From Maylandia zebra (lineage: Eukaryota; Chordata; Actinopteri; Cichliformes; Cichlidae), in the NCBI RefSeq assembly GCF_041146795.1, contig NC_135184.1:9042967-9106966 (forward strand): 64,000 nucleotides of DNA, written 5' to 3'. The notes below the pieces were generated by a model, which ran no database searches, was not told the DNA's origin, and was given only the letters and a program-made list of their open reading frames with translations. Made by a program: the position numbers and the translations under genes. Positions 780 through 62,707 of the stretch are shown piece by piece. Within the stretch, counting starts at the first letter, position 1. Each line of letters begins with the position of its first letter.

Positions 780-996
780 ATACAGTTATTGGTTTTCTTC
801 AGTTTTCTTCTGGGTGTTTGTTGTTGGACTGTAGAATTGGACTTTGCAGCTCTGTCACCAGGACCATACACCGTCTCTGGCTGGGGGATGTTTTCAGTCT
901 TAGTGGAAAATTTACCAAAGCATAAGTAGATGTTGGAGAATGACATAAGTCATGTCCTGAGGGAGTCTGATTTTGAGTCTGGACTGGAATGATGTC
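780..996 (-). pseudogene. decayed cytoplasmic-tail exon of SLAM-like gene A
   Basis: This block aligns along its length with the last coding exon of gene B (15739-15960). Three changes spoil it. The splice acceptor AG is AA (G>A at 997), and the next AG is one base off frame. A 16-base deletion after the codons for TYALV shifts the reading frame. The second tyrosine motif, TVYAQV in gene B, reads TVYGPG here, so the hydrophobic +3 residue is lost. The first motif (STYALV) is still legible. Because gene A already stops in its transmembrane exon (1813-1815), this exon would be untranslated 3' sequence even if spliced. Family knowledge: SxYxxV and TxYxxV are ITIM and ITSM motifs that bind SH2 proteins. 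Confidence 0.75.
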
Positions 997-999
997 TTG

Positions 1000-1808
1000 C
1001 AAATAAATCAAAAGTGCTTTGTTAGGGACATGTAATAGTCATGATAATTTATCTTACATGCAAGAAAATATCACAAACAGTGATGTCTAAATCTGACAAG
1101 AAGAAGCAATATATATAGTTAAGAGAAGCCTTTATTAGTCTCACATGTGGGACATTTTTGGTCATGGCAGAAAGTACAAGTTTAAGAGCAGTAAAAATTA
1201 AGAAAAGAACAGCAGCCATACTATTGTAATGACCACACTGTAACCTCTGCATATTTACAGAATATACACTACATATCAGTTTAACACTGACATTTATCAT
1301 CTTATATAATATTTGAGTAGTTTGAGGTATATTTATGATATATTTACGGACAACATGCATCTTTAGGTAGATAATAGACCTTTTTCTCCTCTGTCATTCT
1401 TCCTTGTGGTCTTTAACTTTTTGTTTTTGTTTTGTTTTCTAAAAAGGGGGGAAGGGAAAACAACAAAATTAATTAATGAATTTCCTTCTGAACACTTCTC
1501 CATCTTTGTTTTATAATTTTGATGGCTTTATTGTTATTTGTTTTTACTTGATATTGTTATTAATTTTTAATTGACTTCTTAAATCTCTCACTTCGGAGTG
1601 AATGAACACAGTTATAAACACACACACAGAGCATACACAAAATTAGCTCATACCTGCTGTACTAAAGTATATCTTAATCTGGGCTTCCCATGGCATTACC
1701 TAATCATAAGAGGAATGTGTATTTGTATAAAGTGTATGCTTAAACGGAAAATATAATTTTTGTGTACTTTATGTATCACCAATTCACTAAAAAAAACATT
1801 GGAACTTA
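1000..1808 (-). other. 3' intron of gene A; middle tail exon missing
   Basis: Most of 1200-1800 aligns with 16885-17570 in gene B. In gene B the small tail exon (16393-16442) lies in the stretch between the last exon and this alignable part. In gene A that stretch is replaced by about 90 unrelated bases (1115-1200, with a tttattagtctcacatgtg retroposon-like piece), so the exon is deleted. Nothing else is seen in the interval. Confidence 0.6.
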
Positions 1809-1812
1809 CATT

Positions 1813-4780
1813 TCATGATGACACAAAGGTTATGAAGAGAGTCAGCAAGAAGAGAACAGAAGTCGAAGTTGCATTTATGGTGGCTCCACTGGGAGCTGTA
1901 ATGAAATTAAATTGTTATGTCACAGAAATTTTGGTTAAATACTTGGATTTATTTGCAAAGAAAAAAAAATATAATAGCAGTAAATCTTTTACTGATCACT
2001 ACAATATTACATTACACACCCCTGGCTGTGGCAGTTTGCTTAAACAAGTTCTTTAAGAAGGCAATACAGATTTTGTTGACAACCATTCACAGTGAGTGGT
2101 CAGTTCACACCTACATTCAATTATCAGTTGAGTTAACCCCACAAACTACGTCTTTGGAGAAGTAGTTCGACATGGGGACAACATGCAAACACCACACAGC
2201 AAGTCCTTTAAAAATCTGGTTATTTCAGTTTTTCATTCATTATTATGAACTTTATTCTCACCTGTCTTTGTTTCACAGTAAGATTTGAGCACCTTCATGG
2301 TTTGATTCCAGCTCACTTGGTTGCTGTGATTACAGAAAATGGTGTCTTGCTCCAGGTAAACAATCAGAGAGGAAAATTCTTTTGTGGCCTTCAAATCCTT
2401 TTCTTCTGCATGAGCGCAGTTTTTACCATCACATCTAAAACTACTGCTGACGTTAAAGTCCACTGTGCTGCAGGTCACAGTCAGGTCACAGGAGTCTGAG
2501 CTGTTGGACACAGGGTCCACTGTCAGGTCAGCAGGAGTAACTGGATCTGCGGAACAACAGGTGTGAAAGTATTAAAAACAGGCCTATGATGTATGAACAT
2601 TTCAAAATAATGAAAAGAGAAACCTACCTTGAACTATGACCTTGTATTCAGCTACGCTTTGCTCTCGTTCTTCGACCACAACTGCAGTATAATCTCCACT
2701 GTCACTGTCTTGAACATTTTTTAATTTCAAAGAGTAATTTTGTCCAAACACCTCAGCCTTTCCTGTATATTTGTTATACACGACTGGATTTTTATTAAAA
2801 CCACATTTAGCTATATTGTTATTGGAATTAAATTTCCAGAGCAAATCTGTCTGTTCGTCAAGTGTAATAGATTCCTTTATATCCAAGCGTAAGTCCTTTC
2901 CATGCAGCACAAACACATTTTGGAGACCTAAAAGAAAACAATTAAAAAATAGAATTAAAAAACTTAACAACAATAATAACAACACTAATATCAGAACCGT
3001 GTGCATGAAGCTATATATTGTAAAATTTACTAAAATGACAGAAGGTTATGTCAACTTAAGATCACAAAAAATTTATGTGGAAGAGTATTTAATTCTCCTG
3101 TCCAAAAAACATGTCAGTGCTGACTGGGAGGCAGGCAGAGTCAGACCCAAATGCGGGAGTTGGAAACAAGGGAGGTAAACTAAAAGGCAGTTTTATTGCT
3201 AAACTTAAACATAATACAGAATAATGCAGGCTGAAAAACAAGGAAAACATAAGTGTGTTGATGCATGCTCAATCATCCAGGTAAGGAAATCCCAAAAAGT
3301 TCATTCTGATCATCTGGATGCAGCGTTTTTACTGATCCAAGACTGAAGAAGTCACTTGGATGAGTGACAAAATGTTGCTGAAAACGTTATATCCAGATGA
3401 ACAGAATCAAACTTTTGGGTAAATCTATGAGTCTTCAGGGACGACAGACTGCAAGGAAGGACACAGCAAAGGACAAACGGAGACAGAGACGATACATAAC
3501 AGAAGGGAATTAACATCATCAATGAACCAAGGACTAGAAGCAAAGATAGCAAACAGAAGAACCAAGAAACAATATCATAATCATTATACAAGGCTCAAAC
3601 ATAGATCACACAGTTACAAGGATCCTGGTGTAGAAAGTAATATTAAATAAATAACAACAGCTCATCAAGCTTAAACGTGCTGCTGCTCCAAATGCTTAAC
3701 CAGACCGCTGACAGGTCTCGCACAGCTGCTCTATCACGTGACGCATACTGCTCCGACTGCTAAGGTCATGAGCTGGGTTATGCAATGTGCAAGTTTTGTG
3801 AGGTGCTTTTGTGATATTTAATAGATCGGATTTCATTTTCCATCCAGTAATTTAGGTCAGTATCGGACCGATACCGATACTGTATATCGGCTCGGTCCAT
3901 CCCTAATGTAGGCAATGCAATAGATACATTGCTGAAGCCAAACTCTTTTTTTAATACTGTAAAATGTCCTGAAAAAACTATCTGAAGTACATTAACTGTG
4001 TTTTTCAAAGGGTCCATGAAAATACTGGGTAGTTTAGCACAAAGGTGAAAAGTCTATAACAGTTTACAGTAATACACTATGTTTAACTGGTGGAACAGAA
4101 GCTGAGGTGTTCGTAGTCATTATCAGGCTACTTCATGAGTAGCAGAGGTTAATTTAACTTTAAGCGGATGGTGCCGGTTAAGGGCACACTAAATTCCACC
4201 TTGATGTTAAACTGTTATACTGCTTGGGAGTTTAATATCCACGAAGAACAGTAAATTATGAAGCAGCAGCACACCTCAGCTGACCACACCCCATACACGA
4301 GCTTTATTTACGCTTATTTCAGAAATAAATTTATTGCTACGTGATTCTTTTCGCCACTCTGAACAACTACACTTGAGCATTAGGTTAGCTGCCAAATCCC
4401 ACTAAAACCCCTGACTATACAGATTATCTTGCAAATCTGCAACAGTTATTTTTTCATTCCCTTTCTTTGTTTTTGTTTTGTTTTTTCTGCTTGTGTTTTA
4501 AAAACAGATCTTCAAACTGAGTAAAACAATTATAATTTAGGATGAAATAAAGTTTCTATTCCTACACATATTACAGCTTTAATAACGCTCCACTTTTATT
4601 CGTTTATTTATTTATTTATTTATCTGTAGTATGTCTTACGTGTAGTCACCTAGATTTCAAAATAAATATACAGCTCCAAAAACGTATTAGCATAACTTAT
4701 TAGTATACAAATTCATCCTTACCTTGTATTTTACATGAACACAGCAATAAAACAGCTCCAAAAAACATTATGCGATCCAT
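1813..4780 (-). CDS. SLAM/CD2-family receptor-like gene A, tail-less product
   Basis: Four coding exons read on the minus strand: 4723-4780 (signal peptide), 2628-2927 (Ig V), 2262-2546 (Ig C2) and 1810-1895 (membrane segment), all joined in phase 1 with GT-AG sites. The product is 241 residues. Residues 1-20 are a signal peptide (MDRIMFFGAVLLLCSC...). Residues 20-119 form a V domain that lacks the usual disulfide, as in CD2-family first domains, and contains DSGDY. Residues 120-214 form a cysteine-rich C2 domain with several N-glycosylation sites (NSS, NVS, NHS, NQT). Residues 228-239 are hydrophobic (VLFLLTLFITFV), followed by SS and TGA at 1813-1815. Compared with gene B the membrane exon has one extra codon and one base deleted near 1831; the deletion causes the stop. 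A small-residue patch (SGA, 217-219) before a terminal hydrophobic stretch would suit GPI anchoring, as in mammalian CD48, but a plain tail-less membrane form is equally possible. An alternative first exon lies at 9021-9078. Family call is strong; function is inferred. Confidence 0.8.
3117..3600. repeat. intronic repeat shared by genes A and B
   Basis: This block (ggcaggcagagtcagaccca ... acaaggctcaaacatagatc) recurs at 18852-19740 at the same place relative to the V exon of gene B. It was therefore present before the gene duplication. It resembles dispersed fish repeats with 'caggcagttttattgc' but I cannot assign a class. The B copy has extra insertions. Confidence 0.6.
3601..4722. other. 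intron 1b of gene A
   Basis: Unique AT-rich intron sequence between the V exon and the 4723 signal exon, including a (TTTA)n run near 4602-4624. No counterpart is seen in gene B after 19740. Nothing else recognised. Confidence 0.5.
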
Positions 4781-4900: not shown

Positions 4901-6390
4901 TTTTTTTTTTCTTTTTTTTTTTAAACTTTATTTAACAAACAATGAGTATATAACATACGAACACATGAAGTATACAAAACAACAGAACATGAACACAAAA
5001 AGCCAGGGGTAAAAGAAAAAGGTGATCCCCACAGAAAGTACAATTAGTATTTATGTCCCTTTTAAATTTTACCATGTAGTGACTGGCTGGATAACATTTA
5101 TGTAGAATTTTAAAAGAGACTTCTTTCACCTTATTTACAATTAAATATTTATGGGGGACCATCCAGACTGTCTTCCACTTGATATCTGGAACATATCGGT
5201 TCCAATAAGATATTATATACGGGAGAGAGACGATATCTTCTTGGAATAAACTACGTATTCTCTTATTGCTGTTACCAAGTTCCTGTGAAAAGCAGATTTT
5301 TCCTATTGGTGACTCAGCTGGATCAGGGAGAGTGACTGAGGTAGATATTGAGCTGTCAGTGTTTTTATATAACATTAAAGTCCCTGAGGGTATGGCACCA
5401 AGCACCATTGAGAATTCCTGAACACTGATTGGAAAATTATATAGTGCAATAAAGTCGTTGTAAGTAAGTAGTTGTCCCTTTTTATTAACCAGCTGAGCCA
5501 CCAATAGGATCCCATTTTGGACCCAAGTTTCCAGGAAAAGTGATTTATTTTTCTATAAAATATCTCTGTTGTTCCAGATGAGGTATTTGTGAGGTGAGAA
5601 GTTGTGTTTATAAATGAGGGTCCACGCTAAGAGGACCTGCTTATGGAATGATGAAAGCTTTACAGGGAGTTTCTCAACATTGTAATTACAATTTAAAATA
5701 AAAATTAAAGCCACCAAAACGAGAGAAAATATAATATGGTATAAAGTTCCAGATAGAGGTAGGGTTTTTAAGAAAATGTTTAGCCCAATTAATTTTGAAA
5801 GTGTTATTTAAAGTAGAAAAGTCTAAGACGTTAAGCCCACCTGATTCGTACTTATTCATCACAACAGTTTTTCGAATATAATGCGTACGGTTTTTCCATA
5901 TAAAATTAAAGAGCATACGGTCAATATCTTTACTAATTTTCTTATCCAGATGTAAGGAGAGGGCAGCATATGTTAATCGGGATATCCCTTCAGCTTTAGT
6001 AAGTAACACTCGACCTTTCAAAGACAAGTCCCTTTGCAGCCACTGGTTGAACTTTTTTAGGGTTTTCTGTATAATTGGAGTGAAGTTTGAAGAGCATCTT
6101 GATTGTTGGTCTTTGGACATTAACAGTCCCAAGTATGTGACTTCTTGTTTAACAGAGATATTACAGATAGTATTTGCAGGGCAGTCTTTAATTGCTAGTA
6201 ACTCACACTTTTTTAGATTTAGGCATAAACCAGAGGCCTCAGAGAAATCCCTAATCACAGTAAGAGCTGGAGGGATTTGGTTTGCATTCTTCAAGAAGAG
6301 TGTGGTGTCATCGGCTAACTGGCTGATGACGAGCTCCTTATCAGCTATGGTGATTCCTTGTACTGATCAAAGTATAGCCGTAATTTAAGG
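4901..6390 (-). mobile_element. 5'-truncated L1-type LINE, ORF2 C-terminal part
   Basis: On the minus strand the element runs from about 6390 to a poly(A) tail (seen as poly-T at 4901-4922). Near 6320-6340 the peptide LADDTTLFLKNA is the reverse-transcriptase catalytic box (normally YADD). It is followed by typical post-RT sequence: GLCLNLKKCELLA, TYLGLLMS, LKGRVLLTKAEGISRLTYAALSL, FNFIWKNRTHYIRK, GGLNVLDF, and a C-terminal CTFCGD piece. The frame is interrupted around 5505-5690, and everything 5' of the catalytic box is missing, as expected of dead-on-arrival LINE insertions. It sits about 120 bases upstream of exon 1b of gene A and may have displaced its original promoter. Confidence 0.85.
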
Positions 6391-15738: not shown

Positions 15739-16838
15739 TTATTGGTTTTCTTCAGCTCTGGGTGTTTGTTGTTGGACTGTAGAATTGGGCTTTGCAGCTC
15801 TGTCCACCTGAGCATACACTGTCTCTGGCTGGGGGATGTTTTCAGTCTTAGTGGATTTTTGTCCAGTGTGAAACTCCACCAAAGCATAAGTAGATGTTGG
15901 AGAATTACATGATTCATGTCCTGCGGGAGTCTGATTTTGAGTCTGGCCTGGAATGATGTCCTGGAAATAAACCAAAAGTGCTTTGTTAGGAAAATGTCAT
16001 AGTCATGATTACTTTATCTTACATGTGTTATACAATAATAAGCCAGGAAGTCTGAATGCAAGAAAATATCACAAACGGTGATGTCTAAATGTGACAAGAA
16101 CAAGCATAAGGTTGGATCCGCATAAGCAAACTAGATGGAACAGTTGGTGTAGAAAGGAGATGGGGTTGATTTTAGAAAGTAGTTTGTGAAACAGTTTTGT
16201 TCATGTGTAGTTGCAGACTTTAGTCCAGTTAAAAATTTAAAGGATTTTGTACAGAAACAAATCTGTTTTCAATAATTTAATTACTCACAATTAAACCATT
16301 TGTTCCTACAGTTTGACTAGCAAAGTGGGAGAGGTTCTTCTTCTGGTTTTTTTTTTTTTTGGTTTGTTTTTCCAAAAAAAGTTTCCGCTTACCTCAGGAA
16401 CCGCATATATAGTATTTTCCTGGTTCCCTCCTTTACTTTTACCTGTAAGTCAGTCATAGAAAATATAGATTGACTTGCTTGAAATTTAAGTTCTTGCAGG
16501 ATAAATTTTATTTCCTTATTAAAGTGTTACATTTACATCTTCTACTAGGTGATTTTTTTAGTACATAAAAAACGACCTCACTGTAGCCAAACAGAAGTGA
16601 TATATTGGACTAATACAATAATATTTATTCCCGATTTTCTATCTTAACGCATGCTAGTTAAACAGAATTTTTTGATAAAAACCCTGTTCTGTCAGTAGAC
16701 TGTAAACAGATCAGTCTGCTTTAAAAAAAAAAGTGAGAGAGAAAAATAAACTCATCCCTCTTTGCAGTCAAAGTTAATTTGATATTTTTATAGCTTTCAT
16801 TAAGTGTGAAAAAACATGCCTATGGAACCTGTCATAGT

Positions 16839-16884
<46 letters not shown>

Positions 16885-19800
16885 AGAACAGCAGCCATAC
16901 TATTGTAATGACAAAACTGTACCCCCACATAGTCACAGAATATACACTACATATCAATTTAACACTGACATTTATCATCTTTTATAATATTTGAGTAGTT
17001 TGAGGTATATTTATGATATATTTATAGACAAATTGCATCTTTACATAGATAATGCAAATTTCAATTGTCTTTAATGGGTGGTGGACATCAAGGTTGCCTT
17101 TGAATTGTTGTAACCATCATTACACGACCTCCTAAAGCTAACAAAACAATGTTTACTGTTCCAATGTTTTCCAAGTCTATACTTTAACATGTACACTGGT
17201 ACAGCTAGGGACAAAATTAATTCAAGAATTTCCTTCTGAACACTTCCCCGTCTTTGTTTTATAATTTTAATGGCTTTGTTGTTATTTATTTTTATTTAAT
17301 ATTGTTATTCATTTTTTATTTACAGCTTAAATCTCCCATTCCACAGTGAATCAACACAGTTACAAACACACTCACACAGAACATACACAAAATAGATCTT
17401 TACTGCTGTACTAAAGTATATCTTCATCTGGGCTCCTGCCATTACCTAATCATATGAGAAATGTGTATTTGTATAAACTGTGTGCTTAAATGCAAAATAT
17501 AATTTTTGTGTACTTTACATATTACCTAATATTACCTACATATTACACTAAAAACAAATATTGGAACTTACATTTCATTATGACACAAAGGGTAATGAAG
17601 AGAATCAAGAAGACAACAGATGTCGAAGCTGCAATTATGGTGGCTCCACTGGGAGCTGTAATGAAATTAATTATATCACAGAAATTTTGGTTAAGTACTT
17701 GGATTTATTTGCAAAGAAGAAGAAAAAAGTATTATAGCAGTAAATCTTTTACTGATCACTACAATATTACATTTCACACCCCTGGCTGTGGCAGTTTGCT
17801 TAAGCAAGTTCTTTAAGAAGGCAATACAGATTTTTTTGACAACCATTCAGTCGGTGTTTAGTTCACACCTACATTCAATCATCAGCTGAGTTAACCCCAT
17901 AAACTACATGTTTTTGGAGAAGTAGTTCGACATGGGGACAACATGCAAACATCACACAGCAAGGTCTTTAGAATCTGGTTATTTCAGTTTTTCATTCATT
18001 ATGACCGTTATTCTCACCTGTCTCTGTTTCACAGTAAGATTTGAGCACCTTCATGGTTTGATTCCAGCTCACTTGGTTGCTGTGATTACAGAAAATGGTG
18101 TCTTGCTGCAGGTAAACACTTAGAGAGGAAAATTTTTTTGTGGCCTTCAAATTCTTTGCTCCTGCATGAGAGCAGATTTTACCATCACATCTGAAACTAC
18201 TGCTGATGTTAAAGTCCACTGTGCTGCAGGTCACAGTCAGGTTACAGGAGTCTGAGCTGTTGGACACTGACTCTACTGTCAGTTTGGCAGCAGTCACTGG
18301 ATCTGGGGAACAAGAGGTGTGAAAGTATTAAAAATAGGCCTATGATTTGTGAACATTTCAAAGTAATAATGAAAATAGAAACCTACCTTGAACTATGACC
18401 TTGTATTCAGCCACAGGCTGGTCTCGTCCCCCAACCACAACTGCTTTATAATCTCCACTGTCACTGTGTTGAACATTCTTTAATTTCAAAGAGTAATTTG
18501 GTCCAAACACCTCAACCTTTCCTGGATATTCGTTATACACGACTGGATCTCTATTAAAAACACATTTAGCTATATTGTTACTGGAATTAACTTTCCAGAA
18601 CAAATCTTTCTGTTCGTCAAGTGTAACAGGTTCCTTTATATCCAAGCGTAAGTCCTTTCCATGCAGCACAAACACATGTTGGAGACCTAAAAGAAAACAA
18701 TTAAAATTTTAATTAAGACTTTAACAACACTAATGTCAGAATTGTGTGCATGAAGCTACATATTGAAAAATTTAATATAATGACAACAAGATCACAAAAA
18801 ATTTATGTGGTATAGTATTTCATTCTCCTGTCCAGAAAACAAAAAACATGTCAGTGTTGACTGTGAGGCAGGCAGAGTCAGACCCAAATGCAGGATTTGA
18901 AAACAAGGGAGGTAAACTAAGGCAGTTTTATTGCTGAACTTAAACATAATACAGAATAATGCAGACTGAAAAACAAGGAAAACATAAGTGTGTTGATGCA
19001 TGTCAATCATCCAGGTAAGGAAATCCCAAAAAGTTGATTCTATTCATTTGGATGCAGCGTTTTTACTGGAAAAAACATTTCATCACTGATCCAAGACTGA
19101 AGAAGTAAGTAAGTAAAATGTATTTATATAGCACATTTCACAGATAAAAATCACAAAGTGCTTTACAATAAGATCAGTCATACCACGTGTTTTAAACCTA
19201 GTACGTGGGACCACCAGTAGCCTCTGACTTGAAGACCTAAGTGCTCGGGATGAAGCATGAGCATTTTGTCACTTGGATGAGTGACAAAATGCTTCTCTTA
19301 CTAAAACCTTTATATCCAGATGAACAGAATTAAACTTTTGGGTAAATCTATGAGTCTTCATGGAGAACAGACTGCAAGGAAGGACACAACAAAGGACAAG
19401 AGGAGACAGAGACGATACATAACAAGGGAAAACACAACAGGTGGGAAGATAACTGAAACAAATAATTAGACACCGGAAGAAGAACAGAAGACATGAGCCA
19501 ATTGGTCACCAAAGTAAATAAGGAAATGACTAACACTGACCTGGAAACCTGAACTTGACACAGACAGAAGCCAAAGCATGAAAAGAAGTCTGTTCCAGAA
19601 AGGAAGACTGGGACAGACTGAAGACAGAAGGGAATTAATATCGTCTAACAAGGGACCAAGAACTCGAATCAAAGCTAGTGAACAGAAGGACCAAGAAACA
19701 ATATCGCAAACGTTATACAAGGCTCAAACATAGATCACGCTTTAAAAACCAGAAGAGTATTACCCTGGCAGTACCCTGACAGAACATCGAAATAGTGAGA

Positions 19801-25800: not shown

Positions 25801-25916
25801 GTGTAAAGTTCTTTAAAAATAACAACACAGTAGCTGTGAAAAAAGAACAAGTTCTTACCTTGTACTTCTATTATGTAGAACAAAAGTAGCGCAAACAAGA
25901 CTACACCACGAGTCAT
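15739..25916 (-). CDS. SLAM/CD2-family receptor gene B with ITIM/ITSM tail
   Basis: Six exons on the minus strand: 25859-25916 (signal), 18387-18686 (Ig V), 18018-18302 (Ig C2), 17572-17655 (transmembrane), 16393-16442 and 15739-15960 (tail). All have GT-AG sites and compatible phases, giving 999 bases or 332 residues. Residues 1-20 are the signal peptide; the V domain (20-119) shows DSGDY; the C2 domain (120-214) has paired cysteines and N-glycosylation sites. The membrane span is about 218-241 (IIAASTSVVFLILFITLCVI), then MKCKSK. Tail tyrosines: Tyr255 (NTIYAVPE), Tyr284 (STYALV, ITIM-like SxYxxV) and Tyr308 (TVYAQV, a canonical ITSM TxYxxV). In mammals ITSMs recruit SAP/EAT-2 adaptors or SH2 phosphatases, so B is probably a signalling receptor on leukocytes. 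The 7.2-kb first intron holds several transposons. The first exon is assigned because its length and phase fit and no nearer candidate was found; the other five exons are firmer. The orthologue is not identified. Confidence 0.85.
16841..16880. repeat. (CA)20 microsatellite
   Basis: Uninterrupted CA repeat in a tail-region intron of gene B. It lies next to the point where alignment with gene A resumes (about 16885 with 1200). Confidence 0.9.
18852..19740. repeat. intronic repeat shared with gene A
   Basis: Counterpart of 3117-3600. It is longer because of a retroposon tail insertion (19102-19262) and extra sequence at 19430-19640 not present in A. Confidence 0.6.
19102..19262. mobile_element. 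retroposon tail insertion in gene B intron 1
   Basis: aaatgtatttatatagcaca and cacaaagtgctttacaataa form a typical fish SINE/LINE 3' motif. The block is absent from the matching position in gene A (3350-3360). Short repeated words (cacttggatgagtgacaaaatg) flank the site. Confidence 0.55.
19741..20655. other. gene B intron 1, unassigned part
   Basis: No exon is recognised. A GC-richer patch at 20395-20620 contains the imperfect inverted pair gaggacccgg / ccgggtcctc-like words (20472-20505) and may be a DNA-transposon end. I could not classify it. Confidence 0.35.
20659..22050. mobile_element. non-autonomous hAT-like element
   Basis: Inverted ends GTTCCCTCTAA (20661-20671) and TTAGAGGGAAC (22038-22048) bound about 1.4 kb without a transposase frame. 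The right subterminal region has the tgcgcaattgcgcacgcgcg motif, known from fish hAT families whose ends read GTTCCCTCTAAGCTGCGC. I could not confirm an 8-base target duplication. A perfect 16-base hairpin lies inside (21661-21701). Confidence 0.6.
21661..21701. repeat. perfect 16-bp inverted repeat (hairpin)
   Basis: ACAACATGTACAACCA (21661-21676), nine bases of loop, then TGGTTGTACATGTTGT (21686-21701). The arms are exact reverse complements. Confidence 0.9.
22051..22759. other. gene B intron 1, AT-rich
   Basis: Contains T/G homopolymer runs (22420-22470) and nothing else I can name. Confidence 0.3.
22760..23250. mobile_element. non-autonomous hAT-like element with internal duplication
   Basis: The left end cagggctctagagtgcaacc and the words ggtcgcactggtgcgacc fit a hAT family with CAGGG ends and repeated 'gtgcgacc' motifs. 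Two ~65-base copies (22891-22958 and 23178-23245: agtctctgt.tgg.caaca.ca ... cgtggcctaaa) lie 287 bases apart in direct orientation. The right end is uncertain. Confidence 0.45.
23413..23840 (+). mobile_element. pogo/Tigger-like element, broken transposase N-terminus
   Basis: It begins at a TA with ccgtattttttgacaataag and gcgcac, matching terminal sequences of fish pogo-like elements. A frame from ATG at 23692 gives MAAVKRHAYEADFKL. A frameshift follows and the next frame reads ISHAVEHGNRRAVREFNINE and SMVQKWRKQEE before TGA (23831-23833). This is the helix-turn-helix DNA-binding start of CENP-B/pogo-type transposases. The catalytic domain is absent. Confidence 0.65.
23841..25858. other. gene B intron 1, 5' part
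   Basis: AT-rich, without recognised exons. 24790-25000 aligns with 6667-6870, and 25670-25858 with 8860-9020, i.e. the duplicated unit. Confidence 0.5.
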
Positions 25917-28117: not shown

Positions 28118-31100
28118 TCACACGTTGCTGATGCGAACACTCAGAGGAGCGTCCCTGACCCGACCTCGGTCCTCTCCTCGTTGTTCCCTGTAGCTCTGCT
28201 CCAGACGAATCTTCTCTGGATCAGTCACCTCAGGTACAGTCCCCCCTCCATTGCTCTGGTACCCGTGCTGGGGGCTGGATGGCTTAAAAATGGGGGCGGT
28301 CTTGGTCTTGGCCACTTTGTCGAAGAAGGCAAAGTCTGCTACATATTTCCCTGAGGGAGACAGGGAAACTACAGGGGGAAACTCGTAGCCCCAGAGGATC
28401 TCATCTGGCAGGTAGGAGGTGCGAACCTGACAGGTGGCGGAGGTTGGCTCCACGGTGGCGCTCATGATCACCAGCAACTCAAAGTCAGCCAATTCTGGGT
28501 CAGTCCAGCCACCACCTGAAGAAGGTACATACAATGGAAAGAAATGTCACATTAAAGTTAAAGACCAAGAATATCCTTAGGACAAAATGGATGAAAGAAA
28601 GTTATAAAGATATTTCACTTAAAGACTCACAGTTAAGGTTTTTAACCACTAGTAGTGCTCTTAATTTGTGTTATTATGAGCATTTTGTGTGTATCTTCTT
28701 TTAATTGGAGATCATGTATCGGAATTTCAGGAGCGGGACCACGCCTCCAAACACGCTCCTTCTGGTTGTCATCTCTATGGGTTCCCCCAGTTCTGCAAGC
28801 TGTTCATTCTCGTTGACGTGCCCCACCCTCCCTCCCTCCTTGTTTTCGATTCTTAACTTCTTCACTTCTATTTAGTACATGGAGATCTGCCAGGCCCGGG
28901 AGCCATCGACAGTCCCCTTCGAGGCCTTCCCCAAACCGCAGCTCAATTCATGTCCAAGCATCACCTTTACCTACTAAAACGCTGTCAAACCTAAAATGAG
29001 GACATTGGCCCAGCTAGTGAATCTTTATACAGATGAAAACTGGGGTTAAAAACAAGTGTCCATGCAGATAAAGAAGTAATGGAGACAGAACTGTCATCAG
29101 CTTTACAGCCATTTAATTACTGGAAGGACATCACCCATGGTCTGGTTGGGAATCAGAGACCATGTTGTTTCATTTCACATTTCTTTTTTTCAGATGAAGA
29201 ACTGAGACAGTTTTGTTGCGTTTTCAGTGAAACAAAACTATGTCTCTGCTGGAAGTACTGTTAAAATTCTCCAAATGATCATCTGTTTTTAAAAAGCTGG
29301 TTTTATTTAGGCTCTATTTAATAGGTGATCAATAAATAACTATAATGTGGCTCATGAACTAAAATGAGTGTGAGACCCCTGAAGAATGTGACATAGTTAC
29401 TACATTAACAAATACAGCATCAAGCAACATGTAAAACATTAAGCTAGTGGCTTCATTTTTTAAAGTCTTTTTTTAATCTTTTGACTTCACAACCAAAAAG
29501 AGGAAATTTATTTCTGCATGAATTCAATTTTTGTGAACCTAGTCATGACATTTCTCAGAAACTGAAGCTATTTTTAACAGTTCATTACTAGGCTTATTAA
29601 CTAACTACAATTTGTGGAAAGCAGGCCTATTGTTAAATTCTCCACCTACACCAGAAAGGGAGGAATGAGGGATGATGTTTTTCTCTATAACACAAGTGTT
29701 GCTGAAAGCATTTGCCTTTTCCTACCAGCACCTTGGAAGGAGGTAAAATTGTGCTAGAAACCTTCAGGGTCAGATGTTTGTATGACAGAGGAATGAGACA
29801 CAAAGGTCAAAGAAATCATTCTGATGCAGTTTGTGACACCACCCACCGAGTCTACTGCTCTCATCGCTAAACTTACCCTTGGCTGCCCAAGCTCTCAAGG
29901 GACTGTTGTCATCGATGACATGGTAGAAGGTAAGGGGCAGGATGAGGAAGGGGCTGTCACTGGAAGTGTCCACTTGAAAGGGGACATTTCTCTGATCCAG
30001 ACGAACCGTCTCCCCTTCCTTGGTCAGAGACGTCTGGAGCAGTTTTCCAGTCACCTGATAGGAATATTGTGCACATGTTGCTTTAGTTCAACTGGTTCCC
30101 AGTTTGACAAATTTCTCATTCACACTAATCTATGACCTCTAAACCTATTTTTATTGTCTAGTCTTTACAAGTATGGAGTGTGTTACGGCTGTCTTCGTGG
30201 GCTGGGGTTCTGACATATAAATGTGACTGTGCAGGTGTGCCTCCAGGAGTGGTGGATCCTGAAGATGGTGTGCCTGGATTGGATGATGATCTGGAGGCGG
30301 GGTATAAGATAACGCGGTTGAGGATGGCAATCCATCCATCCTCGGTTTTACCCTCAACCAGCTGGGGTTGCGACATGCCCTGTGTTGTTTTGTGAATCCA
30401 GCAGGAAGTAGGGGTGGACCGCCTTTGCAGTTGGGCACAGTTTTCTCATGTTTTGTTAGTCAGCGAAGTAAGTGATTGTTGTTTGGTCATGTTTCTTTGG
30501 GGCTAGGCAAGCAGTCGCTCCTCTGAGTTAGTTTCCTTTTGTCTGCTATTTTGGCGTGGGTCCACCCCGAAGCCTGAGTGTCTCCTGTGAAACCCATTTT
30601 TGTTTTGTTCTTGTAAATAAACCATCTCTTATTTTAACTTATGGTGTGATGTGCTGCTTGGGGTCGAACTGGGGGTGGATCATTCCTCTTGACCTGCCGT
30701 AACAAGTGGAACTTTTCTCAGCTACTGTATACTTAAAGTATCTGCATGCATACTTGCCTGACACCCAATCAGGAGACTTTTGCGCATGTTGGCCACCCGG
30801 ATCATGAGGCAGGGGCGGCCCTCGTGGGCGGATACCACAGCATGTTGGCTAAACTTCACTGTCTCACCGCGCTTCTTTGGCCGGGCAACCTGATCAGGAG
30901 GAACTTGGTCAGAGTCATCTTTGTTAATGATTATTGAGTAAACCTGCAGCTCACATGTACACTGCAGTGTTGTTTTAGTCAAGACAACTTCTGCTTTTTT
31001 TTTAAAAAAAAAAAAAATGTTTTCAAAACACAAATTAAGACCTGCACGGCTTTGTTGATACAAGGCACTTGTCTCTTTTCATTGCATCTTACATGGATAT

Positions 31101-33584
31101 TTCATTTGTTGGCTACCTTGGCCAGAAAGGTACCGGTGATGAAGATTTCCATGAGCATGGTGATAACCAGTTGAACTATAAGAAGGATTATGGCAGCTGG
31201 ACATTCCTCAGTGATGCAGCGAAAACCGTATCCAATGGTTGTTTGGGACTCCAGGGAGAAGAGGAAAGCCCCCGTTAGCGTCTGCATCTGCATCACACAG
31301 GGCGTGTGGTTTGATGGAGGGTCAAACTCTGGAGGAAAATGTTTAAAAAAGCATCAAAAGCTCTTTTAAGTAATTCTAAAATATAAAAATAAACACTTTT
31401 GTTATTATTTGCTTTTTAGTTTTATACACATTATTATGGAACAACAGACCAGAATATTTAAAGTCTGGCTAAAAAAGGGATTTTGCTATTAAACACACTG
31501 TCTGCTGAGACACGAGTAACATCAGCGGAAGAGGGGGAGAGGCGTGTGTTAACGAAAACTAAGATAGAATAAAGATATGATATAGTTGCCAGATTATAGC
31601 TAAAACTTCACTTTAACCGCAAGATAAGTTCAGTAAAAAAAAGAAACAACAGCCTCTGCATCTCTTTACAAGCCTCCTATAACATTCACCCTCACTGCAT
31701 ATGCATCCTGGTTAGCACAAAAAGTAAGGAAATTAGTTAGTTATTTTTTTTGTTTAACAATGCTTCTTGGCAATAGATCTGTTAGATTTGTAAGTAAAAT
31801 GCATTATTAAATGCATGATTAAATTTAAATTCAAACAAATAACAAAATATAGAGCAATTAAACTGAATAGCACTGGCAGCTTTAAGACAGGAGAAGGCAT
31901 GATCACATCACCCCTGTCCTAGCTAACTTACACTGGCTCCCCGTTAAATACCGTATTGATTTTAAAATACTTTTGCTTAGTCTTAAAATTCGAAATAACC
32001 TGGCGCCTAGCTACCTAACTGGTCTCTTCGACTTGTATAACCCTAAGACAGTACTATGATCGTCTAGCCAACTGTTATTAGTGCAACCAAGGTCTTGATT
32101 AAAGACCAGAGGTGACCCTGCCTTTGCTATTGCCGACCCTAGACTCTGGAACAATCTCCCAGTCGATGTCTGCACAGCTGAGTCCATTCAATTGTTCGCC
32201 AAAAAAACCCAGTTGTTTAACTTGGCTTTTGAATCAAATTAGTTTGACTTTGACCCGCTGCATTGCACTATGTAATTGTATTGTTCGTACCTTGTTTTAC
32301 CTGTCATGCTCTGCCCCTAATTTTATCTGCACTGCGGTACAATTGTGAAACAGTTTGATGTACTCCGGTCTTTTAAAATGTGCTATAGAAATAAATTTCA
32401 TTTCATTTAGTTTGAACAGGAGATCTTGTTGGCTCCACTTTCCCTTATAGTCACTTCTTTAGTCAAGGTTATATTCACTATTATGGTTGTTTTCACACTT
32501 GTCTGTAGTCTCTTTGTTTTGGTGTGAAGAAGGCAATGAGATCTGTTTCACACTTCTTCTTGCATTGCTCAGTTGCACATACATTGAGGTTGAGTGTCCT
32601 AAACAGACATGACTGAGGTTTTGCAAGAAGTCATGACGTGTAAAGCGCAATGAACACCTGAAGTCTGGGAAGCTTCTTAGCAAACACTCCTGTTTCAGTT
32701 TATGCAATGACTGTGTGCATTCGGTTTGAATGGGTTTGAATTCACACACACAGCACAACGGTTTTTCACTTTTTAAAAGAAGTCAGCAGGAAGTCTAAGT
32801 ATTAAACTGTCAGTGGTTGACAACTGAAACACTTGAATAGTTAGATATTTTTGCACTGACCTGCAGGTTTTAGTGTTTCTCAAATGTATAAATAATTTGG
32901 GGTTTTAAAGTCAGCACTGACATTTTTTCAGACATTTCCTGTATTCGACCCATAATAAACCACAAACCTGCGCAGGAAGATTAGGTACTTTTTGTGCAGA
33001 TGACTTGAAGTCAAAACTGGAAACTTTCTGTATGATTCAGTTACTAATTATGTAACTGAAAAACACTTTTCAGGTGTAATAGTGAATGATTGTTAATGTC
33101 AGTTGAAACTTTTAACTGAAAACCCGCTTGTAGATCACTTAGAATGACTCCATGTGCCAAACTCAAGGCCGGTGAGGCGTGTCAGTGTGAACCTATGACC
33201 TGATCTTTGCTCTTTTAAATTTCTCCCTGCTTTCTCACCAAGAAGGTCTCCATGGACCAGTGCGACCAGGTACCACAGCACCCCGAACACGAACCAGGTC
33301 CCTGCAAAAGTGGCAGTGAACAGGAAGAACTTGTAGCGCCACTGCATGTCCAGAAATGTTGTCCAGAGGTCACGCATGTACAGAGCACTCCGTCCGCTGA
33401 CATGCTCGATGCGCACGTTGCTTCGCCCGTCTTTGGACAGGACACGTCTCCTCTTCCTCAGAGACCCTCCCCCACTAGATATGCCACCACCAAGTAAAGG
33501 TTTTAAGACATCTGTCTGTGTCTGCGAGTGGCAAACTTTATGTGGAGAGGAGCTACGAGAGGAAGGAGGTGTGGCAGATGTCAT
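28118..33584 (-). CDS. kcnj10: inward-rectifier K+ channel Kir4.1
   Basis: Five coding exons on the minus strand: 33239-33584, 31117-31328, 30758-30889, 29877-30054 and 28118-28515. They total 1266 bases, or 421 residues (human KCNJ10 has 379). Phases agree at every joint. Landmarks: QTQTD and [17 protein letters not shown] in the N-terminus; first membrane helix about 85-109; pore helix and filter TTIGYGF (145-151); second helix about 160-181 with the rectification Glu176 (MEIF); basic PIP2 region RPKKR (189-193); C-terminal SVRISNV, the PDZ-binding end typical of Kir4.1. The N-terminus has Ser/Gly-rich additions (about 5-15 and 32-42). The ATG follows directly after a CCCAG acceptor, so the 5' UTR is in an upstream exon. 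Known role: K+ buffering in glia and basolateral K+ recycling in kidney and inner ear, alone or with Kir5.1. Odd points: the coding region is one exon in mammals, and intron 3 has a GC donor (CAG|GCAAGT at 30757-30756). Confidence 0.95.
28516..29876 (-). other. kcnj10 intron 4
   Basis: Donor GTAAGT (29876) and acceptor TTCTTCAG (28516-28517). A GC-richer patch at 28730-28960 looks repeat-derived but is unclassified. No other gene. Confidence 0.6.
30181..30704 (+). mobile_element. solo LTR in kcnj10 intron 3
   Basis: It begins TGTTACGGC and ends GCCGTAACA, 524 bases, with the 4-base target duplication AGTG (30177-30180 and 30705-30708). AATAAA at 30615-30620 lies about 85 bases from the end and a TATAAA lies near 30217, consistent with plus orientation, opposite to the gene. 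It makes up most of the 703-base intron. Confidence 0.8.
31329..33238 (-). other. kcnj10 intron 1 of the coding region
   Basis: Joins phase 1 exons (CTTG|GTGAGA ... CCTCCAG|AG). It holds a LINE fragment (31901-32407). The remainder is unique AT-rich DNA. Confidence 0.7.
31901..32407 (+). mobile_element. L2/CR1-type LINE 3' end
   Basis: The plus strand reads [38 protein letters not shown] and, after stops, [20 protein letters not shown], the C-terminal end of a fish L2/Rex1-like LINE. It ends with the 3' repeat tract aaataaatttcatttcattt. 5' truncated and with stops. Confidence 0.85.
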
Positions 33585-42837: not shown

Positions 42838-44380
42838 CAGGGAGTGCAGAATTATTAGGCAAATGAGTATTTTGTCCACATCATCCTCTTCATGCATGTT
42901 GTCTTACTCCAAGCTGTATAGGCTCAAAAGCCTACTACCAATTAAGCATATTAGGTGATGTGCATCTCTGTAATGAGAAGGGGTGTGGTCTAATGACATC
43001 AACACCCTATATCAGGTGTGCATAATTATTAGGCAACGTCCTTTCCTTTGGCAAAATGGGTCAGAAGAAGGACTTGACAGGCTCAGAAAAGTCAAAAATA
43101 GTGAGATATCTTGCAGAGGGATGCAGCAGTCTCAAAATTGCAAAGCTTCTGAAGCGTGATCATCGAACAATCAAGCGTTTCATTCAAAATAGTCAACAGG
43201 GTCGCAAGAAGCGTGTGGAAAAACCAAGGCGCAAAATAACTGCCCATGAACTGAGAAAAGTCAAGCGTGCAGCTGCCAAGATGCCACTTGCCACCAGTTT
43301 GGCCATATTTCAGAGCTGCAACATTACTGGAGTGCCCAAAAGCACAAGGTGTGCAATACTCAGAGACATGGCCAAGGTAAGAAAGGCTGAAAGACGACCA
43401 CCACTGAACAAGGCACACAAGCTGAAACGTCAAGACTGGGCCAAGAAATATCTCAAGACTGATTTTTCTAAGGTTTTATGGACTGATGAAATGAGAGTGA
43501 GTCTTGATGGGCCAGATGGATGGGCCCGTGGCTGGATTGGTAAAGGGCAGAGAGCTCCAGTCCGACTCAGACGCCAGCAAGGTGGAGGTGGAGTACTGGT
43601 TTGGGCTGGTATCATCAAAGATGAGCTTGTGGGGCCTTTTCGGGTTGAGGATGGAGTCAAGCTCAACTCCCAGTCCTACTGCCAGTTTCTGGAAGACACC
43701 TTCTTCAAGCAGTGGTACAGGAAGAAGTCTGCATCCTTCAAGAAAAACATGATTTTCATACAGGACAATGCTCCATCACACGCGTCCACAGCGTGGCTGG
43801 CAAGAAAGGGTATAAAAGAAGAAAAACTAATGACATGACCTCCTTGTTCACCTGATCTGAACCCCATTGAGAACCTGTGGTCCATCATCAAATGTGAGAT
43901 TTACAAGGAGGGAAAACAGTACACCTCTCTGAACAGTGTCTGGGAGGCTGTGGTTGCTGCTGCACGCAATGTTGATGGTGAACAGATCAAAACACTGACA
44001 GAATCCATGGATGGCAGGCTTTTGAGTGTCCTTGCAAAGAAAGGTGGCTATATTGGTCGCTGATTTGTTTTTGTTTTGTTTTTGAATGTCAGAAATGTAT
44101 ATTTGTGAATGTGGAGATGTTATATTGGTTTCACTGGTAAAAATAAATAATTGAAATGGGTATATATTTGTTTTTTGTTAAGTTGCCTAATAATTATGCA
44201 CAGTAATAGTCACCTGCACACACAGATATCCCCCTAAAATAGGTAAAACTAAAAACTACTTTCAAGAACATTCAGCTTTGATATTAATGAGTTTTTTGGG
44301 TTCATTGAGAACATGGTTGTTGTTCAATAATAAAATTATTCCTCAAAAATACAACTTGCCTAATAATTCTGCACTCCCTG
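42838..44380 (+). mobile_element. Tc1-family transposon with IR/DR ends
   Basis: The 1543-base element is bounded by TA (42836-42837 and 44381-44382). Its 25-base terminal repeats are perfect inverted copies (CAGGGAGTGCAGAATTATTA...). A second perfect inverted pair of 21 bases lies inside (43017-43037 and 44182-44202) and shares the core AATTATTAGGCAA. Each end thus has two direct repeats about 175 bases apart, like Sleeping Beauty-type IR/DR elements. It carries the transposase frame listed separately. Both terminal pairs are still perfect, so the copy is young. Confidence 0.95.
43056..44063 (+). pseudogene. Tc1 transposase, one nonsense codon
   Basis: The frame from ATG 43056 to TGA 44061-44063 spans 335 codons, close to the usual 340 or so of Tc1 transposases. 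The only interruption is an in-frame TGA at 43836-43838 (codon 261), in the position where relatives have Trp before PPCSPDLNP. The N-terminal part has the paired-type helix-turn-helix (LTGSEKSKIVRYLAEGCSSL, then a second helix set to about 115). Catalytic residues: Asp in LWTDEMRV, Asp in IFIQDNAPSH and Glu in DLNPIENLW. The last two are 34 residues apart, the DD34E signature of Tc1. The truncated 260-residue product lacks the third catalytic residue, so this copy is not autonomous. Confidence 0.92.
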
Positions 44381-61455: not shown

Positions 61456-62707
61456 TCAGCTGTAGGTGTGAATGATTCGGTGTCGCTTTAAATGATGCAT
61501 GAGGATGAAGGTTTTCCCGCACTGTGAGCAGCTGTATGGTCGTTCCCCGCTGTGCGTCCGCTGGTGAACCCTCAGGCTGCTCTGCTGCGTGAACCTCTTC
61601 CCGCACTGTCCGCAACCGTACGGCTTCTCTCCCGTGTGAGTCCGGTGGTGTATGCTGAGGTGCGACGAGCACTGGAAACTCTTCCCGCACACCGTGCACC
61701 AAAACGCTCGCTTTCTCTTGTGGCTCTGCTGGTGCAGCTTGAACTGGTGGAGGCGGCTGAACGACTTTCCGCACTGCGAGCACCCGTAGCATCGGGCCGT
61801 CCCAGAGAGGGGTTTGTGTAGGCTGTGAGGGTTAAAGCTGCTCGGTGTGAACGTGTTGTGCGACTGAGTTACAACTGGTCCGTCTCGAGTTGCGGTCTCC
61901 CTCTCAGGGTCTTCCTCTAGCTGGCTCAGGTGAGTGGAGTGTGACGCGTTTCTCTGCGGGTAAATTAGTTCCTTCTGCTTGTCTTGCTGCAATAACGGAG
62001 CCTGCGACCTAGGCTGGAAATCTGACGACTGTGGAACGTCCTTCTGATATTCGCTGTTGTAAATCCCATTGCAAAGCCTCTGAGAAGGCAACTGCTGGAC
62101 GTTAGTCGACTTGCTCAGGTTAGAAGCTACATTTGGATCTGAATGGTCCGGGTACGTGTTGGAATACTCCTCTACTACACTAGAGAAGTCAGGGAACCCA
62201 GTGTCAATGTCATTACCTTCAATTATGGACGACCAAATTTGATTCTCCCTTTCATCCAATGAAAATTCAGCAGCAAGTTGCGTCTGCTTCCCCACATTGT
62301 GCTGGCACCCATCCTGTCTGAATGCCAGTCGATCTTCTTCCTTCTCTGTCTTCACTGTGAACTGAAGGCTACTGATGTCTACTGCACGCTGGGCAGAGTT
62401 AAACGAGTCACTGAACTCTGATGGCTTCTGTCTGGCAACCTCTGGATGGGTTAACTGGTGGCCCTCTTCAAACTGCTGGTTCTCTGGAGCACTAGCAGCG
62501 TTAGGGTACTGAACAGCAGAACCTGCAGGTGACAGGTGTTAGGAGACTTCAGGTAAGGGTGTGAAGTTCAATTAAGGTTTAATTCTTGCACAAAACCTAG
62601 GTCTTCAACTCACCAATTGGTCCAGCAGAATCACTGATCCATAGAGCCTCATCTGGACTTTCTTCTTTAATTGTGAAGGAAACAGTTGCATCTTCAATCT
62701 CAGGAAA
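61456..62707 (-). CDS. C2H2 zinc-finger protein, last two exons
   Basis: Minus-strand exons 62614-62707 and 61456-62522 (stop at 61456-61458), joined in phase 1 (CCAATTG|GTGAGT ... CCTGCAG|GT). They give about 385 residues of a C-terminal part; the start lies beyond the window. Residues from the first exon are acidic and include a FTIKEE sumoylation-like motif. A long linker rich in Ser/Gln follows, and then four C2H2 fingers at the C-terminus: YGCSQCGKSF...HQQSH, FWCTVCGKSF...HHRTH, YGCGQCGKRF...HQRTH and YSCSQCGKTF...HRIIH. The linkers TGEKPY and SGERPY are standard; the first linker (KRKRAF) is unusual. Likely a nuclear DNA-binding regulator; targets unknown. A GTG at 62355 has been taken as a start by simple frame calling but is internal. 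Confidence 0.9.

Follow-up and report, generated by a model that had tools for sequence, protein, structure and literature searches.

A one-base deletion and loss of the ITSM tail in a SLAM-type gene of the cichlid Maylandia zebra, with a plausible GPI-linked product

The route from a transmembrane exon to a GPI signal has precedents in two families of mammalian receptors. In Old World monkey CEACAMs, GPI signals arose when a single base was lost from the transmembrane exon. Human FCGR3B (CD16B), compared to FCGR3A, is GPI-linked via Ser203 together with an early stop at codon 216, as stated in a passage of PMC6563257. In the SLAM family, mammalian CD48 (SLAMF2) is a member with two Ig domains and is the GPI-anchored ligand of 2B4; cytomegaloviruses carry CD48 homologues, two-Ig proteins of the CD48 type, for which the mode of anchoring has changed in evolution (both according to excerpts from PMC7472110).

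We analyzed a 64,000 nt stretch of the Maylandia zebra genome (the window; contig NC_135184.1, positions 9,042,967 to 9,106,966), which carries two SLAM/CD2-like genes, A and B, on the minus strand. For gene A (4780-1813, minus strand), which is of the SLAM type, both the one-base deletion and the loss of the tail are confirmed. Primate CEACAM5-8, which derive from a CEACAM1-like transmembrane exon, resemble gene A in being Ig-type paralogues within a family that has ITIM/ITSM-bearing relatives, and their transmembrane exon has turned into a GPI signal, as is proposed for gene A. They belong to a different Ig family, however, and are GPI-linked proteins with known functions, whereas gene A is a predicted gene with a putative anchor. 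FCGR3B is, like gene A, the duplicate of a receptor and was converted in two steps, as is proposed here, but it is an Fc receptor and was altered by point changes rather than by a frameshift. The cytomegalovirus CD48 homologues differ in being viral and in having undergone the opposite change, from a GPI-linked host protein to a viral type I transmembrane protein (again according to excerpts from PMC7472110).

When the genome (962 Mb in 63 contigs) was searched with the V exon of gene A, at least eight SLAM/CD2-like copies with a similar V exon were detected, a count that is a lower bound. All of them are located at 8.966-9.062 Mb of the contig to which the window belongs. Besides A and B, these are six copies which we named G1 to G6 according to their order on the chromosome. 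The V and C2 exons are open and in the same phase in all eight copies, and the six cysteines of the C2 domain are invariant throughout. The donor of the V exon is GTAGGT in seven copies and GTACGT in G3. Over 195 alignment columns, the proteins encoded by A and B are 82% identical, while A shares 58-63% with the other six copies. Two short pieces on the plus strand lie outside the eight copies: one resembles the C2 exon (8960312-8960430; 77% identity to gene A over 119 nt) and one the V exon (8964995-8965098; 73% over 107 nt). They are possibly gene relics. Among the matches listed in a search of open-access titles, none dealt with a cluster of SLAM genes or with CD48 in fish.

Gene A has the V plus C2 Ig ectodomain, similar to that of SLAM members, by which the SLAM/CD2 family is recognized. 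Its closest relatives are those of its own cluster; among solved structures (PDB), phmmer placed SLAMF6 first (E 2.6e-6); CD276 (2.7e-6) and CD48 (5.2e-4) scored as well. A profile of the eight copies gave 2.4e-8 for SLAMF6, 1.8e-4 for CD276, and 3.8e-4 for CD48. In Pfam, the matches of gene A to Ig models stayed under their cut-offs, as did one chance-like match to ATP-grasp. Most family members also carry a cytoplasmic ITSM. This is seen in gene B (TVYAQV) and is missing from the tail-less gene A, which does not exclude A from the family because CD48 is GPI-anchored and yet a SLAM member. The similarity pattern speaks against orthology of gene A to mammalian CD48. The description of gene A as CD48-like, made in a sequence-only reading of this region, is better taken as analogy than as orthology. 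AlphaFold2 models of the V domains of A and B had a mean pLDDT of 34.5 and were unusable.

The leader exon of gene A (4723..4780, minus strand) starts with ATG, encodes MDRIMFFGAVLLLCSCKIQ, ends in phase 1 with the donor GTAAGG, and was matched by tblastn with an E-value of 2.6e-6. It is 83% identical at the DNA level to the leader exon of G5 over 54 nt, and by its similarity to the leaders of G5 and G4 this hydrophobic, leader-like exon is a candidate signal peptide. It is followed by the V-type Ig exon (2628..2927, minus strand; 90.7% identical to B) and the C2-type Ig exon with all six cysteines (2262..2546, minus strand; 92.3% identical to B), both of them open and with intact splice sites. 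For the flank that precedes the ATG, no convincing counterpart was seen next to the other copies. Reading frames that look LINE-like by eye are found there (4932-6294, minus strand), with an A-rich end about 125 bases upstream of the ATG; one of the two frames (5686-6294) had no Pfam match at 0.001. This sequence may have displaced the promoter of gene A.

For gene B, all exons are likewise on the minus strand. A leader exon encoding MTRGVVLFALLLFYIIEVQ is probable at 25859..25916; its phase fits, and it ranked highest in hydrophobicity among four candidates from an ATG-donor scan of 18687-64000. The V-type Ig exon (18387..18686), the C2-type Ig exon (18018..18302), and the intact transmembrane exon (17572..17655) are followed by two tail exons, cyt1 (16393..16442, read from the sequence and its splice sites) and cyt2 (15739..15960), the latter with STYALV and the ITSM-type motif TVYAQV. 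The whole model translates through to its stop. Genes A and B share a block of 88% identity from intron 1 onward, but they differ in their leader exons, that of A being nearer to the one from G5. This suggests a partial duplication or a gene conversion of the 3' part.

The remainder of the window contains two fragments of a gene for an inward-rectifier potassium channel (28118-28534 and 33135-33584, minus strand; Pfam IRK_C and IRK), which is KCNJ10-like by eye. If it is of the KCNJ10 type, its place close to SLAM genes would fit human 1q23. There is also an ORF for a Tc1/mariner-type transposase (43056-43838, plus strand), with weak matches to HTH_38 and DDE_3 below the curated cut-offs, and a C2H2 zinc-finger reading frame (61456-62355, minus strand; Pfam zf-C2H2).

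The former transmembrane exon of gene A (1810..1895, minus strand) has kept its donor GTAAGT and ends with APSGATINATSTSVLFLLTLFITFVSS-stop. It is 86 nt long compared to 84 nt in B, having three additional bases and lacking one. The gap fits between 1828 and 1827, where A reads ACC-TTTG and B reads ACCCTTTG; MAFFT sets it a few bases further upstream at no cost in mismatches. At this site, G5 reads GCCCTTTG. Since B and G5 both carry the base, its loss is derived in A. The 3-nt difference between A and B is not polarised. The sequence-only reading had reported a base missing relative to B, and this is borne out against G5 as well; it had put the deletion near 1831, which is right as to the event and not as to its exact position. 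It was also correct that the frame ends at a TGA: this stop is at 1813..1815 (minus strand), 3 nt ahead of the exon end, so that by itself it should not trigger mRNA decay. The predicted protein of gene A has 241 residues. In the seven other copies, the membrane segment is read through into charged residues (with exons hand-picked from candidates). When each base of the B exon was deleted in silico, 78 of the 84 deletions brought a stop codon into the exon itself, and an uncharged hydrophobic end was left by 28 of the 84. The outcome seen in gene A is thus an easy event. With the separate damage in its tail exons, however, it is more than a stray base.

The tail exon cyt1, which has a counterpart in B, G4, G5, and G6 (the matches in G5 and G6 being short and weak), was not found in gene A. 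A piece of 92 bases (1109..1200, minus strand) stands opposite about 773 bases of B that include cyt1. Between it and B, blastn found no match; a forced alignment pairs some parts loosely, so a plain deletion is possible. An AATAAA within this piece (1136-1131) could provide a new 3' end for gene A. What is left of cyt2, the tail exon with the ITSM (786..996, minus strand), was delimited by alignments with B and G4. Compared to both, it has lost the acceptor AG and has a 16-nt deletion. At another place it is 5 bases longer than B, a difference that is unpolarised because G4 carries a length change of its own there. The motif TVYAQV has become TVYGPG, and the relic was matched only as two pieces in different frames, one of them with a stop. 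By these alignments, the tail exons of gene A are shown to have decayed, and we infer that this decay came after the one-base deletion.

Might the truncated end of gene A serve as a GPI signal? In APSGATINATSTSVLFLLTLFITFVSS, the residues S-G-A are followed by eight mostly polar ones (TINATSTS) and then by the hydrophobic stretch VLFLLTLFITFVSS. This layout fits descriptions of GPI signals in passages of PMC2571997 and PMC7125958, although the 12 to 14 hydrophobic residues of gene A are short compared to the "about 20" given in the latter. A rule-based GPI test was passed by gene A, but also by 2529 of 5000 shuffled sequences and by four of the five cut paralogue segments submitted to it (out of seven), and only four of eight control GPI signals passed. 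As it does not discriminate, the test was dropped as evidence and given no weight.

Hydrophobicity is more informative, with the one insertion-energy scale and the eight control GPI signals used here. The best 19-residue insertion sum is +0.94 for gene A, +0.32 to +7.28 for the eight GPI signals, and -1.19 to -3.98 for all seven transmembrane segments of the paralogues. With 21 residues, the sums are +1.57, +0.60 to +7.57, and -0.29 to -4.61, respectively. On this scale and against these controls, gene A thus has the marginal C-terminal hydrophobicity, weaker than that of a transmembrane helix, which Galian et al. in 2012 are said to have described for GPI-signal segments. Truncation is not what sets it apart. 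When cut at the place of the gene A stop, B keeps a sum of -2.81, and B with a comparable in silico one-base deletion still reaches -1.93, as hydrophobic as a transmembrane helix; it is therefore gene A's own residues that make the difference. An Asn in place of Ile contributes 2.65 of the 3.75 by which the sums of A and B differ, and the residue at this position is Ile in both B and G5. This suggests that a conversion of gene A took at least two steps, not one, although the weakening by Asn could also be drift after gene A had died. GPI attachment of the product is plausible from these properties. The proposed resemblance of the C-terminus to a GPI signal is made plausible by the hydrophobicity that separates A from its paralogues, and not by a rule test that half of the shuffled sequences pass. 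As to the view that the frameshift created this end, the deletion is real but would be only part of the cause, as gene A's own residues, chiefly the Asn, make the difference on this scale.

We consider the conversion of a signalling receptor into a GPI-linked ligand or decoy the most likely mechanism, with a probability of about 0.43. Under this proposal, gene A is a tandem paralogue within the SLAM/CD2 family and has been left without an ITSM tail. The one-base deletion ends its protein inside the hydrophobic segment, as the reading frame shows, and residues specific to A, chiefly Asn for Ile, weaken this segment, as seen in the sequence. GPI transamidase would then cut after the Ser and add a lipid anchor. 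The result would be a surface protein with two Ig domains that might bind the partners of B-like receptors without SAP/ITSM signalling, and that may serve, similarly to CD48, as a ligand or decoy.

Close behind this stands the reading of gene A as a young pseudogene, killed by the frameshift or by the loss of cyt1 and decaying as a whole, with an ectodomain that has been lucky so far. The damaged tail exons and the transposon-like sequence close upstream of the leader would fit this, and the divergence between A and B is of similar size in exons and introns, with JC distances of 0.081-0.100 for V, C2, TM, and cyt2 and of 0.061-0.147 for pieces of intron. On its own branch, no purifying selection on the ectodomain of gene A was found by replacement and silent counts: replacement changes number 16 and silent ones 4, which equals the ratio expected under neutrality (about 464:121 by sites), compared to 20 and 9 on the B branch, with 1 ambiguous. 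Given this neutral ratio, an early pseudogene is about as likely as a GPI-linked protein. Positions invariant in the other seven copies are not spared in A (3 changes; mean of neutral simulations 4.7, P 0.26), whereas they are in B (2 against 6.4, P 0.026). The counts of A and B are nevertheless alike (Fisher P 0.52), and paralogue pairs with open V and C2 exons have similar replacement/silent ratios (0.37-0.94 across the cluster; A-B 0.77, G4-G1 0.94, G5-G1 0.72). The whole cluster evolves fast, so the neutral ratio on the A branch does not settle the question. The absence of a stop codon on this branch has P 0.44 under neutrality. What speaks against a pseudogene is that the splice sites are kept from the leader to the TM exon and that the 585 bp of V and C2 contain no indel between A and B, compared to 17 gaps in 1330 bases of aligned intron (leaving out the poorly aligning 1462-1376 and 1200-997). 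For the half of the divergence that falls to A, the expected number of indels is 3.7 (P0 0.024; 0.15 if gene A had been neutral for only half that time). Besides the frameshift, clearly A-derived exon damage is confined to the tail, with two events (the loss of cyt1 and the 16-nt deletion) and none that is clearly derived in the remaining 722 bp of coding exon. By length alone, this distribution has P 0.075. It falls to 0.02 when the 5-nt difference is counted as A's, and is 0.065, even with that event counted, if the 3-nt transmembrane difference is an insertion in A; both differences being unpolarised, the test is weaker.

The other alternatives are less probable. Gene A may be expressed and not GPI-linked, its product being a tail-less membrane protein, one retained and degraded in the ER, or one shed in soluble form. 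We regard this as unlikely. A hydrophobic end is present, the rule test did not discriminate, and unprocessed GPI precursors go to ERAD according to a passage of PMC7125958; the sum of +0.94, compared to the negative values of all paralogues on the insertion-energy scale used, would however make this end a poor membrane span. Very improbable is an error of assembly or sequencing that hides an ordinary tailed receptor. The base is missing from a short C run in the one assembly examined, but cyt1 was not found, and cyt2 has the lost acceptor, the 16-nt deletion, and a further length change. As these tail exons were broken independently, a single assembly error cannot explain the tail loss, and gene A would be without a B-type ITSM tail even if the base were restored.

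The tail loss of gene A is one among several tail changes in this SLAM-type cluster. Tail exons of the ITSM type are found in B, G4, and G6. G1-G3 (contig positions 8965778-8996961, plus strand) have a lysine within the membrane segment and a short, mostly basic tail that is followed by a stop (e.g., ISICVVKTVVFSVGLIIMVIAVISVHIMEKIKKQK-stop). Such a layout is like that of activating receptors which pair with ITAM adaptors. Read by hand, the first tail exon of G5 (contig positions 9011003-9010965, minus strand) appears to run into a stop in frame (YSKKGGGQENAAYVVALK-stop), and the stretch from this exon to the leader of G4 gave no match to an ITSM exon. G5 thus appears to represent a second, different tail loss within the cluster.

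Only tentatively do we propose the wider reading that a GPI-linked ligand or decoy of the CD48 kind has arisen within this fish SLAM cluster from an ITSM receptor, in at least two steps (the one-base deletion and the Ile-to-Asn change in the polar spacer), and that the mode of anchoring, besides ligand binding, is under repeated turnover. The modes would then be ITSM-tailed (B, G4, G6), short-tailed with a membrane lysine (G1-G3), shortened (G5), and GPI-linked (A). If gene A is expressed and its product GPI-linked, the SLAM family would join the CEACAM and Fc-receptor families in the conversion of a receptor to a lipid-anchored protein, a conversion which, if true, needs only minimal changes in the transmembrane exon. 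CD48-type ligands would then have arisen more than once. With ectodomains that are so similar and modes of anchoring that would differ, genes A and B would form a natural pair in which a role as decoy or ligand could be tested directly.
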